Shown here: positions 23,496 to 29,156 of the stretch, one piece after another
Numbering within the stretch: position 1 is the stretch's first letter
Layout of the letters: each line of letters starts with the position of its first letter
Origin: Chryseobacterium gwangjuense
Lineage (GTDB): Bacteria; Bacteroidota; Bacteroidia; Flavobacteriales; Weeksellaceae
NCBI RefSeq assembly: GCF_021311115.1
Contig: NZ_JAJTNP010000004.1
Span: 248,001-312,000 of the forward strand
Direction of reading: 5' to 3'
Length of the DNA stretch: 64,000 nt
Position numbers and translations under genes: made by a program
The notes under the pieces: model-generated
What the model was told of the DNA's origin: nothing
Database searches by the model: none
The model's input: the letters and a program-made list of their open reading frames with translations, nothing else

Positions 23496-23569
23496 CTATT
23501 GAAATTTTGCTTTTATTTCTTCTAAACTATAAACAACTGGTATCACTTCTTTTCCATTTAATGTTTTTT
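23496..23569 (-). pseudogene. Out-of-frame C-terminal tail of the DUF3667 protein
   Basis: If the A6 tract at 23564-23569 (minus strand) had one more A, the DUF3667 frame would skip its stop and read PKKTLNGKEVIPVVY then SLEEIKAKFQ before a TAG at 23496-23498. This tail has ordinary protein composition and a charged helical end, unlike random intergenic sequence. It probably represents the original C-terminus, displaced by a one-base indel. Confidence 0.5.
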
Positions 23570-24370
23570 AGGAGCGAGATATTCAAGTGCTTCAGGGCCT
23601 TTTAGCATGGCCATAATAACCCCTAAAATAATAACGCCTATAAAAAGAATAATTACACCAACTATGATTAGGCCAATCAAAGCTAAAACTCGTAAAATAA
23701 CAGCCTTTAAAGGTTTGTCGTTATAAAACTCTTTGAAAAAAAAGACCAATAATAGCGGTGTTAAAAGTAAAGAAATCATACTGACATTGTAAAATGTAGC
23801 CGGATGGTCTTTTAAAAAGAATAATATAGGATAGAATAATACAATAAGTGACAGGGTGTAAAATGAAAGAACATAAGAATTGATTACAATATGTTCATAG
23901 TAATTATGCCCCCATTTTTTGAAGGATAAATAGGTGAAAAAAGAGAAAAACGGAATAGATAACAGCATGATAAAAGAATTATACGACGTTACAACCGACA
24001 TATAATCATGCATGAATTGAGAATTGGCAGCAGCAGCATATTTTTCACTTTGAAAATATTTCACAATAACATCTGCCATTCCTAATATTTTATAGGAAAT
24101 AAATGCCGAAATACCACTTAATACAAATGCTAATAAAATCGGTTTGTAATGATTGACTCTATTTCCGTCAATAAATTCACGGGCAGTTTTCCCCGGGTTT
24201 TTGAGGATATTTTTTACGGAATATAAAAAACCTTTATTGGTATGAATAAAAGTATATTGTACTTCATCCCAAATATACTTTCTATCGATTCTTTTATATT
24301 TTTTTTGTCCACAATTCCCACAAAAATTTGTTGTAATGGGTTGACTACAGTTGAGACAATTTGATTCCAT
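23558..24370 (-). CDS. DUF3667 domain membrane protein, probably frameshifted at its C-terminus
   Basis: 270 residues as read. The N-terminal zinc ribbon has C5, C8, C17 and C20 (NCLNCSQPI and FCGNCGQKKY). The DUF3667 core follows, with YTFIHTNKGFLYSVKNILKNPGKTAREFIDG. About five hydrophobic helices follow between 75 and 255. It sits in the inner membrane; function unknown. The frame stops at LAPKKH right after an A6 run; with one extra A it would continue for about 22 more residues (see 23496-23569). It is preceded on the same strand by a small two-helix membrane protein 24 bases away. Confidence 0.82.
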   Translation of the reverse strand: MESNCLNCSQPITTNFCGNCGQKKYKRIDRKYIWDEVQYTFIHTNKGFLYSVKNILKNPGKTAREFIDGNRVNHYKPILLAFVLSGISAFISYKILGMADVIVKYFQSEKYAAAANSQFMHDYMSVVTSYNSFIMLLSIPFFSFFTYLSFKKWGHNYYEHIVINSYVLSFYTLSLIVLFYPILFFLKDHPATFYNVSMISLLLTPLLLVFFFKEFYNDKPLKAVILRVLALIGLIIVGVIILFIGVIILGVIMAMLKGPEALEYLAPKKH

Positions 24371-25414: not shown

Positions 25415-25819
25415 CTATTTGAATACAATTTTGTAATATCCTTTTTCATCTGTTACATCGATGTTGACTCCCGTAAACGTTAGTTTATTAATTTGATAGC
25501 CATCACAGCCTCCTTTAAATTCCGATGACTGAATTGCAAAATCAAAATTTTTAAGATTAGAATTGAATTTGTAGTTTTTTGTACCATTATAAGCACCCAC
25601 ATTTTCTAAGATGACCTTATCATCGGAAGTTTTGGTCAGTTGTATCGTGGTTTGGTTCTCTTCCACAACCGAATATGAGGCTAGAGTTCCGTTGGTAATC
25701 AGGTTTTCACCATTGGAATTAACAAATTCAAAAACGATCGGTTGAGGAGCATTATAACAATCGTCACCACAAGCGGTGAAAAGAAATGCTATGAGAAGGA
25801 ATATGAATATTTTTTTCAT
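25415..25819 (-). CDS. Putative lipoprotein
   Basis: 134 residues with a lipoprotein signal (MKKIFIFLLIAFLFTAC, lipobox FTAC, Cys17). The mature chain is beta-rich with two further cysteines (DDCYNAPQ, GGCDGYQ). It ends in FTGVNIDVTDEKGYYKIVFK, a carboxy-terminal strand pattern common in small flavobacterial lipoproteins. Function unknown. It may be co-transcribed with the exported protein whose start lies 34 bases downstream. Confidence 0.7.
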   Translation of the reverse strand: MKKIFIFLLIAFLFTACGDDCYNAPQPIVFEFVNSNGENLITNGTLASYSVVEENQTTIQLTKTSDDKVILENVGAYNGTKNYKFNSNLKNFDFAIQSSEFKGGCDGYQINKLTFTGVNIDVTDEKGYYKIVFK

Positions 25820-25872
25820 TGGATTAATTTCTGTGAAAAGTAAAATTAATCATTAATGCCATGTAATCAAAA

Positions 25873-26063
25873 TTAGAATGGACCTGAATTATTAGAGCGA
25901 CTCCTAAATATTTTCAAAACTTGTGCAAGTTGATAATCCGTAATATCAAAATCATCAACATTAATTTCTATTTTTTCGCTGTTATGAAAAAAATATAAAT
26001 AATTACTTTCAGGTTGGTAATCCTTTTCCATTAATACAAATGATGATTTGGGATATTTTTTTT
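25873..26063 (-). pseudogene. Out-of-frame C-terminal part of the adjacent membrane protein (or separate 52-residue ORF)
   Basis: On the minus strand the frame from the A8 tract (26056-26063) to TAA at 25873 reads KKYPKSSFVLMEKDYQPES, then NYLYFFHNSEKIEI, NVDDFDITDYQLAQ and VLKIFRSRSNN. Composition and pattern (a VDDFDI strand-turn followed by an amphipathic helix) are strongly protein-like. It continues the membrane protein of 26009-26443 if one A is removed from the tract. Alternatively it is an independent ORF starting at ATG 26031 (52 residues), overlapping the upstream gene by 23 bases. Confidence 0.6.
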
Positions 26064-26443
26064 ATTTCAGTAATAATTTTAAAAATAAAATAACCTGTAA
26101 ATGTGCTAAGTATAATCAACATAAATATTACTGTTCCGTTGAGTTTGAATTTAAGACCTAAAAGAAAAAATACCCCCAAAATCATAAAAATACTATAAGT
26201 CGCAATAGCAACAATTCTGCCTGAACGCGAATATTTAATAATAACTTCTTCTGGAAGTGTATTGTCATCATATTCAATTTTTTCATCCCTATGAATAGAG
26301 TATTCTCTATGAATAAAAACCCCATTAATAAAAGTACCAATAAAGAAAATAAATGAAAGGGGAATAAAATATTGTAATAAATAAACACCTATTAAAAAAG
26401 CTAAAATTCCTAAGATTGCGTAAAAAATGATTCCAAATTTCAT
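26009..26443 (-). CDS. Four-helix membrane protein, probably frameshifted
   Basis: 144 residues as read: helices at about 4-22, 26-44, 79-97 and 104-122 in two hairpins, with an acidic/basic loop (HREYSIHRDEKIEYDD) between. The last 15 residues after EIKK (ISQIIICINGKG...) come after an A8 run and look unlike a natural C-terminus. The other frame past that run stays open for about 60 plausible residues (25873-26063). I do not recognise the family. The -7-like sequence TATCTTCG lies at 26463-26470. Confidence 0.65.
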   Translation of the reverse strand: MKFGIIFYAILGILAFLIGVYLLQYFIPLSFIFFIGTFINGVFIHREYSIHRDEKIEYDDNTLPEEVIIKYSRSGRIVAIATYSIFMILGVFFLLGLKFKLNGTVIFMLIILSTFTGYFIFKIITEIKKISQIIICINGKGLPT

Positions 26444-26621: not shown

Positions 26622-29156
26622 ATGATACACGACCAACGCACAGAAAAATTCAGGCAGATGGTGGAAAATAAGTTCCAGATCTACAATTCATTATTTATGA
26701 GTTTGCCTTATGATAAGATGACCAATATTGGGATGCTTCTTCCGTTTTTATATGAAGAAAGCAAAACAGGGTATGAAGCAGGAAAAACTCCTGAAGAAAT
26801 CTTAGAAGAATTTTTTAAACATCATACCGACTTACAGACAGACGAGCAGAAACTTGAACTGCTTTTTAAGATTATACAATATATTGAGCGACAGGTAGTA
26901 TTATTCGATAGCATTGAGGATGCAGCCTTTCCTGTGCTTCATTCCGAAAGTGATAACGGAACAGTAACTAATCTATTTGAACGTTCATTGCAGGATCATA
27001 AGCTTGAAGAGGTACGGAAAAAATTAAAGGATTTTACAGTGAAGGTCGTTTTTACTGCGCATCCTACCCAGTTTTATCCTAATTCGGTACAGAGAATCCT
27101 TCATGATTTGAGAAATGCAATTACAACAGATTCTATCACCAATATTGACATGTTGCTGCAGCAATTAGGAAAAACACCTTTTGTAAATAAAGAGAAACCG
27201 ACTCCTATTGATGAGGCGATGAGTATCATTTATTATTTACGATATGTGTATTATGATACGATAGGAGAACTTTTTACTAAAATAAAATCTGCATTTGGAA
27301 ACGATCATTTTCATCTTCATGAAGATCTGATTCAGTTAGGCTTTTGGCCGGGAGGTGACCGAGATGGAAATCCTTTTGTAACTGCTGAAGTAACAAAACG
27401 AGTAGCAGAAGAATTGAGATCTGCTATTTTGAAAGCGTATTACAATAATCTTAAATTGGTCAGAAGAAGATTAAGTTTCAGAGGAGTGTCCGAAGTATTG
27501 GGAGTGTTGAGTACAGAATTATATACCGCTATTTTCAGAAATGAAAAAATTGAGGCAGAAGATATTATTAAAAGATTGAATGAAGCGGAAGAAATTCTGG
27601 TTACGCAGCACAATTCCTTATTTATCAATTTATTGACGGAGTTTAAAGATCGAGTTAAAATTTTCGGAACGCACTTCGCAACATTGGATGTAAGACAGGA
27701 TAGCAGAATTCATCAGAAGGTGATTGATGAAGTGTTTGCGAAAGTGTATGGAAATATTGAAGCAAGTAATGAGGATAAGTTTAACAAATTGATCCAAATT
27801 TCAGAAAAAGTAAATCCGGATGATTTTGATGATATTGTAAAAGACACTCTTCTCACGGTTTCTCAAATTACAGAAATTCAGCAGATGAATGGCTTGAGAG
27901 GAATGAATCGTTATATTATTTCAAATTCGGATGCTGTAAAAGATGTAATGAATGTATATGCATTCTTCAAAATCTGTGGGTATCAGGACGAAGATATTAA
28001 TATGGATATCGTTCCGCTTTTTGAAACCATGGAAGGGTTGGATAATGCTGAAAAGGTAATGAGTGAATTGTATCAGAATCCGGTTTATAAAAAACATCTT
28101 GAAAAGAGAGGAAATCAGCAAACGATAATGCTTGGTTTTTCAGATGGAACAAAAGACGGAGGTTATCTGAAAGCAAACTGGGAGATTTATAAAGCTAAAG
28201 AAGTTCTTACAAAACTTTCCGAACAAAACGGAATTAAAGTAGTGTTTTTTGATGGTAGAGGAGGACCACCCGCAAGAGGAGGCGGAAAAACCCACGATTT
28301 CTATGCTTCTCAAGGCAAAACAATCGCCAATAATAAGATCGAATTAACGATTCAGGGACAAACGATTACCAGTATTTTTGGAAATAAAGAACAGGCAAAA
28401 TACAATTTCGAACAGCTTCTAACAGCTGGAGTGGAGAATGATGTCTTTAAAAACGCTAAAAAAGATCTTACAGAAAAAGAAAGAGCGTTAATTATTGAGT
28501 TGGCGAATATCAGTTATCAGAAATACTCAGATCTGAAAGCCCATCCGATGTTTGTTCCTTATCTTCAGGAAATGAGTACGCTCGAATATTACGGAAAAAC
28601 CAATATTGGTAGCCGTCCGTCAAAAAGAGGGGGCGGAAATGAGTTGAAATTTGAAGATTTGAGGGCAATTCCTTTCGTTGGATCATGGTCGCAGTTAAAA
28701 CAAAATGTTCCCGGATTCTTTGGATTTGGGTTTGCTATACAGCAGATGAAAGAACAAGGAAGATTTGAAGAAGTGAAAGAATTGTACAAAGGTTCGGATT
28801 TCTTTAAAACTTTAGTTTTAAACTCAATGATGAGTATGAATAAATCGTATTTTCCATTGACTTCCTATATCAAGGATAATCCGAAATTTGGAGCATTTTG
28901 GAATGTTTTATTTGAAGAATATCAATTGTCTAAAGAAACAATGCTTGAATTGACAGGGTTTACAATGCTTCAGGAAGAAGATCCATTATCCAGAAAATCC
29001 GTGATGATTCGCGAGAAAATTGTTCTTCCGTTACTGAGTATTCAACAGTATGCTTTAATGAAAATTCAAAAAGGCGAAGGTGATGTGGAAGCATATGGAA
29101 AACTGGTGACACGATCTTTGTTCGGAAATATTAATGCGAGTCGAAACTCAGCTTAA
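26622..29156 (+). CDS. ppc: Phosphoenolpyruvate carboxylase
   Basis: An 844-residue enzyme: PEP + bicarbonate to oxaloacetate + Pi, refilling the TCA cycle. Catalytic H147 is in VVFTAHPTQ. GFWPGGDRDGNPFV (about 241-254), the mobile loop FFDGRGGPPARGGGKTH and the IGSRPSKR motif are all present. The C-terminal region is shorter and more divergent than in E. coli Ppc, as usual for the Bacteroidota form. Complete. Single-gene unit with its own -7 box and a strong terminator. Confidence 0.96.
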   Translation: MIHDQRTEKFRQMVENKFQIYNSLFMSLPYDKMTNIGMLLPFLYEESKTGYEAGKTPEEILEEFFKHHTDLQTDEQKLELLFKIIQYIERQVVLFDSIEDAAFPVLHSESDNGTVTNLFERSLQDHKLEEVRKKLKDFTVKVVFTAHPTQFYPNSVQRILHDLRNAITTDSITNIDMLLQQLGKTPFVNKEKPTPIDEAMSIIYYLRYVYYDTIGELFTKIKSAFGNDHFHLHEDLIQLGFWPGGDRDGNPFVTAEVTKRVAEELRSAILKAYYNNLKLVRRRLSFRGVSEVLGVLSTELYTAIFRNEKIEAEDIIKRLNEAEEILVTQHNSLFINLLTEFKDRVKIFGTHFATLDVRQDSRIHQKVIDEVFAKVYGNIEASNEDKFNKLIQISEKVNPDDFDDIVKDTLLTVSQITEIQQMNGLRGMNRYIISNSDAVKDVMNVYAFFKICGYQDEDINMDIVPLFETMEGLDNAEKVMSELYQNPVYKKHLEKRGNQQTIMLGFSDGTKDGGYLKANWEIYKAKEVLTKLSEQNGIKVVFFDGRGGPPARGGGKTHDFYASQGKTIANNKIELTIQGQTITSIFGNKEQAKYNFEQLLTAGVENDVFKNAKKDLTEKERALIIELANISYQKYSDLKAHPMFVPYLQEMSTLEYYGKTNIGSRPSKRGGGNELKFEDLRAIPFVGSWSQLKQNVPGFFGFGFAIQQMKEQGRFEEVKELYKGSDFFKTLVLNSMMSMNKSYFPLTSYIKDNPKFGAFWNVLFEEYQLSKETMLELTGFTMLQEEDPLSRKSVMIREKIVLPLLSIQQYALMKIQKGEGDVEAYGKLVTRSLFGNINASRNSA

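Follow-up and report, generated by a model that had tools for sequence, protein, structure and literature searches.

The window considered here is the whole analysed stretch of 64,000 nucleotides, taken from a Chryseobacterium gwangjuense genome of 3.49 Mb, which is, together with G069 (3.4 Mb; handles of this form denote genomes), among the smaller genomes listed for the genus. On the minus strand, a membrane-protein gene with a broken reading frame lies between an intact lipoprotein gene and a plus-strand gene that, from its sequence, we take to be ppc (phosphoenolpyruvate carboxylase). These two genes border what is called the slot in the following. The features are:

25415..25819 (-), downstream lipoprotein gene, 134 aa, intact; match in at least 141 of 173 genus genomes, paralogs included
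25840..25848 (-), putative -7 box of the lipoprotein gene, TAATTTTAC, spaced 19 nt from the -33 box
25868..25872 (-), putative -33 box TTTTG of the lipoprotein gene, directly past the stop codon of the broken gene
25873..26022 (-), native 3' tail of the broken gene, now out of frame; 83% match to residues 172-219 of a 221-aa ortholog
25873..26031 (-), 52-aa ORF, chance ATG (26031) plus native tail; mis-annotation risk
26009..26443 (-), ORF as it stands, 144 aa; TGA directly past the deletion junction
26020..26023 (-), deletion junction, 95 nt missing; gap versus six of six intact references
26023..26443 (-), 5' part of the broken membrane-protein gene in its native frame, codons 1-140; 65% identity to residues 1-143 of the intact G004 ortholog
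26056..26063 (-), A8 tract, not the site of the lesion; identical A8 in G184 and G024
26622..29156 (+), ppc, bordering the slot on its other side; matched in all 173 genus genomes

The A8 tract, the 144-aa ORF and the 52-aa ORF starting from the ATG at 26031 are all present as a sequence-only reading of this DNA had described them, and dropping one A from the tract does yield a single open frame that starts at 26443 and reaches the stop at 25873. That reading placed the break at the A8 tract, took the frame beyond it for the end of a domain (KKYPKSSFVL), and held that removal of one A joins the two frames without any other change. Intact Chryseobacterium orthologs are about 220 aa long in one frame and read, in the alignment of orthologs, KKISxIxISINGKGIQI...LEKIIVKRLVSRESKHDYxPExNYLYFFHNNEKIEINIDDFDITDYQLAQVLKIFR. 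The two pieces in the window match residues 1-143 and 172-219 of one single-ORF ortholog, and therefore the first match spans the A8 tract. Past the tract, residues 130-141 of the window ORF in its present frame are identical to those of 21 orthologs at 5-10 of 12 positions, versus 1-3 of 12 in the frame reached by removing one A. Judging from this alignment, KKYPKSSFVL belongs to a frame not used by the orthologs. The tail frame stays open as the true coding tail, and only about 11 codons, from the A8 tract to the junction, are open by chance. The product of the one-A repair would carry these approximately 11 unrelated residues and miss about 32 native ones. It was rightly supposed that the tail belongs to the same gene; the tail does have homologs.

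The lesion is found downstream of the tract. In pairwise alignments running from the start of the membrane gene to the start of the lipoprotein gene, a 95-nt gap at 26021/26022, 33 nt past the A8 tract, appears against all six intact references, and it is the sole coding-sequence indel against five of them (G184, which is C. tagetis RG1; G186, which is C. taiwanense TPW19; G010; G106; G170). The region of the A8 tract is free of indels against the same five. The alignment with the more diverged G004 holds four paired indels upstream in addition to the missing 95 nt, and this genome is too diverged for judging whether any other frame-changing indel is present. Both sides of the junction share GA, which makes its position ambiguous by 2 nt, and the tail changes frame because 95 is not a multiple of three. 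Intact orthologs encode both parts in a single frame in 30 genomes, the deletion is not divisible by three, and the native frame continues past the A8 tract, so that the frame change does not lie at the homopolymer. What had been said of a broken gene is right in so far as there is one membrane-protein gene and both frames are its own; the place and the cause are different, namely a 95-nt deletion and not the A8 tract.

The same reading had pointed to a similar A6 lesion 2.5 kb away. This second site comprises two features:

23496..23555 (-), scar holding the last 19 codons GKEVIPVVYSLEEIKAKFQ and the stop of a deleted neighbour gene
23558..24370, DUF3667 gene, full-length, with T6 at 23564..23569 near its end

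The DUF3667 protein ends in EALEYLAPKKH in the window and in C. taiwanense TPW19, and in EALEYLAPQKH in G069, so that the end point is the same in both relatives. The deleted neighbour is a separate secreted-looking protein, of 144 aa in C. taiwanense TPW19 and found also in C. tagetis RG1 and G028, and its gene is shortened differently in G069. By this comparison, the site at 23496..23555 is a deletion scar too, and the supposed A6 lesion is the remaining end of one gene beside a full-length other.

Among the 173 genus genomes, 53 have a match to the membrane-protein gene and 120 have none. Sorted by hand, the 53 comprise 30 with an intact copy at the slot (28 of the main type together with the more diverged G008 and G175), five with divergent intact copies, three with only a paralog of 437-440 aa, nine with broken copies (the window included), five with the tail only, and one, G019, counted apart, in which a contig end cuts the gene. 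Both ppc and the lipoprotein gene lie within the fetched stretch of each of the 30 intact copies. The lesions in the relatives differ from that in the window. In G028 (L056, a one-contig genome), the same tract is A7, with a one-base frameshift near codon 129 and a 143-aa product, which is a frameshift or a sequencing error. There is a stop codon near residue 190 in Chryseobacterium sp. Leaf405 (G024) and one near residue 207 in G189. G176 carries an insertion of about 1.5 kb at residue ~179, containing a 446-aa ORF that presumably encodes a transposase; G087 has an in-frame loss of about residues 73-173, and G059, G147 and G163 have divergent copies that are decayed. The five tail-only remnants begin at residues 160, 177, 177, 184 and 195 of 221, and the one in G017 contains a stop. 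No second copy of the gene was found elsewhere in the window's genome.

By ppc, the closest genome among the matches listed is G069 (97%), where a 438-aa paralog stands in the slot in place of the 220-aa gene (L094). The 438-aa paralog, which has a long C-terminal extension, is the immediate upstream neighbour of the 220-aa gene at L060, L077 and L078 (G001, G108 and G131). The copy of G175 (L088) is a mosaic: its identity to the main type is mostly 15-45% per 20 columns until residue ~177 and rises to 54% and 83% in the tail, a pattern that would suit a divergent allele joined onto the tail of a resident one. For the lipoprotein gene at L059 (G010), ppc at L062 (G003) and an ADH-like gene at L095 (G153), tblastn gave two pieces each, overlapping or abutting, which suggests frameshifts.

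Presence and absence were mapped on a tree of a single gene, ppc, with 109 tips, from which G003 and G164 (both intact), G136 and G019 are absent. With the main type and the two diverged copies counted as present, 23 changes are needed by parsimony, or 45 losses without regain; the corresponding numbers are 25 and 46 when divergent copies are also counted, and 26 and 45 when the paralog is counted too. The losses without regain are an upper reading because genes at the slot may also be regained, and the genomes are related, so all these counts overstate independence.

In the model of the G004 ortholog (mean pLDDT 86.8, pTM 0.73), helices are predicted at residues 3-22, 27-53, 73-96, 103-130 and 201-217, and strands at 66-71 and between 133 and 193. 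The 5' part in the window would hold the four predicted membrane helices and the first strand after them. The residues missing in the window hold the strands 141-144 and 155-164, and the domain would hardly fold even with the frame kept. The part after the membrane helices is predicted, from this one model, to be PH-like. With VIA-align, PH, PTB and FERM chains are among the top rows at Z 7-9, a range in which unrelated helical chains score equally high and which, by the tool's own note, possibly reflects only a common arrangement. Foldseek against the PDB gave nothing at E <= 0.001, and Pfam gave no match above the cut-off for the intact protein or the two window ORFs. Over 26 orthologs, Pfam matches are scattered and weak (best E 0.0013), with no family convincingly reached. 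The STM3941 family consists of membrane proteins with a PH-like domain, and its model (NCBIfam NF041635) is matched by four of the 26 orthologs at E <= 0.5 (best E 9e-4); a tandem five-TM protein model is also touched, by two (best E 7e-4). Predicted membrane helices followed by a strand sandwich with a C-terminal helix are common to the STM3941 family and the present proteins, but 22 of the 26 orthologs have no match to that model at E <= 0.5.

The dN/dS values are 0.09-0.18 in seven pairs of intact copies, among which the pair G024-G106 (0.12) is not counted. For window codons 1-140, they are 0.17 versus C. tagetis RG1, 0.11 versus C. taiwanense TPW19 and 0.17 versus Leaf405, and for codons 1-129 the value versus G028 is 0.21; the values for the 3' tail and for the G024-G010 pair are out of register and were left unused. 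Such low values in the 5' part mean either that the lesion is recent or that the stub is still kept, and the data do not separate the two.

Could the frame have been broken by one A gained in the A8 tract, through mutation or sequencing error, with nothing else changed? The single open frame obtained by dropping one A, and the one-base loss that G028 has in the same tract, would agree with this. However, it is scarcely credible, given that the same A8 is in frame in C. tagetis RG1, and in Leaf405 until its later stop codon, that the codons past the tract match orthologs in the present frame, and that 95 nt are missing downstream. A-runs can permit transcriptional slippage, and the length of the tract varies among species (A8 in C. 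tagetis RG1 and Leaf405, A7 in G028), as would suit a programmed or phase-variable slippage giving a long and a short product. We regard this as extremely unlikely, in that the window product would be partly scrambled and internally deleted, intact orthologs need no slippage and aligned orthologs use one frame, and the A-run is interrupted by G in C. taiwanense TPW19 and G004; a conserved slippery tract with two conserved frames is not seen. The locus resembles homopolymer frameshift and slippage genes in its A8 tract and in the difference of one A in G028, but the frame change in the window is not at the tract. An assembly error may lie behind the missing 95 nt, although such a clean loss is unlike a homopolymer error.

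The 144-aa four-helix stub might also be a functional short form, with loss of the PH-like domain favoured, which seems to us very unlikely. It would fit the low dN/dS of the 5' part and the position of main-type lesions with an intact start, which are mostly in the 3' part (codon ~129 in G028, 141 in the window, 179 in G176, 190 in Leaf405 and 207 in G189, and about 73-173 in G087). However, having five of six lesions beyond codon 128 departs only mildly from expectation (about 0.05 with a uniform model), the similarity search picks up copies more readily if long parts of them are intact, and complete absence of the gene is frequent, as the 120 genomes without a match indicate. That there are two separate genes, for a membrane protein of 144 aa and a protein of 52 aa, is almost certainly wrong: both ORFs do exist in the window, and tails occur without the remaining gene in five genomes, but those stand-alone tails start at different residues, one of them holding a stop, and both parts are one ORF in 30 genomes. 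What the 52-aa ORF encodes is the C-terminus of the gene itself, preceded by a chance ATG, and the warning that it is prone to mis-annotation was justified.

We are therefore left with a recent pseudogene that arose by the 95-nt deletion, the A8 tract being uninvolved and the tail outliving the rest by way of the lipoprotein promoter, an explanation that we hold, taken as a whole, to be very probable. The intact ancestor would have encoded a protein of ~220 aa with four predicted membrane helices and then a predicted PH-like domain. Deletion between sites having only GA in common removed 95 nt at 26020-26023, which took away ~32 residues of the predicted PH-like domain and shifted the last ~49 residues into another frame. 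Translation now ends at 144 aa, and the four-helix stub that is left probably has no function. Species repeatedly lose or swap genes in this slot, and the last codons may persist in it with the lipoprotein promoter beginning at their stop codon and further deletions being selected against. Bacterial internal-deletion pseudogenes have the same marks, that is, single-ORF orthologs, a frame-shifting loss, the failure to find a second copy and other lesions in relatives. There is no difference in kind; the peculiarity here is that the leftover 3' end, which occurs in several species, abuts the putative promoter of the neighbour. The gene is a pseudogene of the ordinary kind, which had been correctly noticed and wrongly explained.

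The putative promoter was surveyed in 104 upstream regions of the lipoprotein gene. Passages of PMC9723704 describe a -7 box TAnnTTTG for Flavobacterium psychrophilum, and PMC2483708 gives the pair TAnnTTTG (-7) and TTTG (-33) for Bacteroides fragilis and for one promoter of F. johnsoniae. The motif TAnnTTT[AG] is present in 99 of the 104 regions (shuffles: mean 14, maximum 25), and the spaced pair TTTG-N17-23-TAnnTTT[AG] in 55 (shuffles: mean 0.6, maximum 3), where the shuffling used two-base blocks and the genomes are related, so that the counts are a guide and not a test of independence. The pair is missing in the other 49 regions, namely 15 of 44 from genomes with the gene, paralog or remnant and 34 of 60 gene-less ones, and the candidate -33 box is far from universal.

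Gene-less slots, in which ppc and the lipoprotein gene share a contig and are no more than ~1.6 kb apart, were hand-picked from the 120 genomes without a match, among the ppc and lipoprotein matches listed; 60 were fetched, and at least one qualifying genome (G091, with about 1.5 kb) was not included. In 14 of the 60, a decayed remnant of the 3' end of the gene was found; it has the same orientation and stops 42-62 nt ahead of the lipoprotein ATG. Three of these 14 reach E < 0.001 by themselves, versus none at that level in 20 shuffled sets of 60, a comparison confined to E < 0.001 and lower levels; the remaining 11 are weak matches chosen by position. At E <= 10 the search gave 22 matches, of which the eight away from the tail position were not counted. 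Other same-strand genes also occur in these slots (L097-L156): a 278-aa family in 13 of the 60, a SLATT-like 150-aa protein in five, a pair of cNMP-binding-domain protein and peptide deformylase in three, and a 387-aa family in two.

That the tail survives is probably owed to the lipoprotein promoter, which starts at the stop codon of the tail, and we lean towards selection on that promoter as what limits the deletions. More tentatively, and in our view rather doubtfully, the slot could be a small exchange site with a fixed right end formed by the gene's last ~30 codons and the lipoprotein promoter, at which incoming genes or alleles join the kept tail (compare G175), and the window copy would have been caught soon after its first disabling deletion.

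The case illustrates that a plausible homopolymer story can mislead, as two neighbouring lesions of apparently one base are larger deletions leaving 3' tails. Annotators should not list the 52-aa ORF as a gene. Across the genus, one gene has been lost from the slot many times with the same end left behind, and the slot would permit testing whether the promoter of a neighbour sets the limit of gene erosion.
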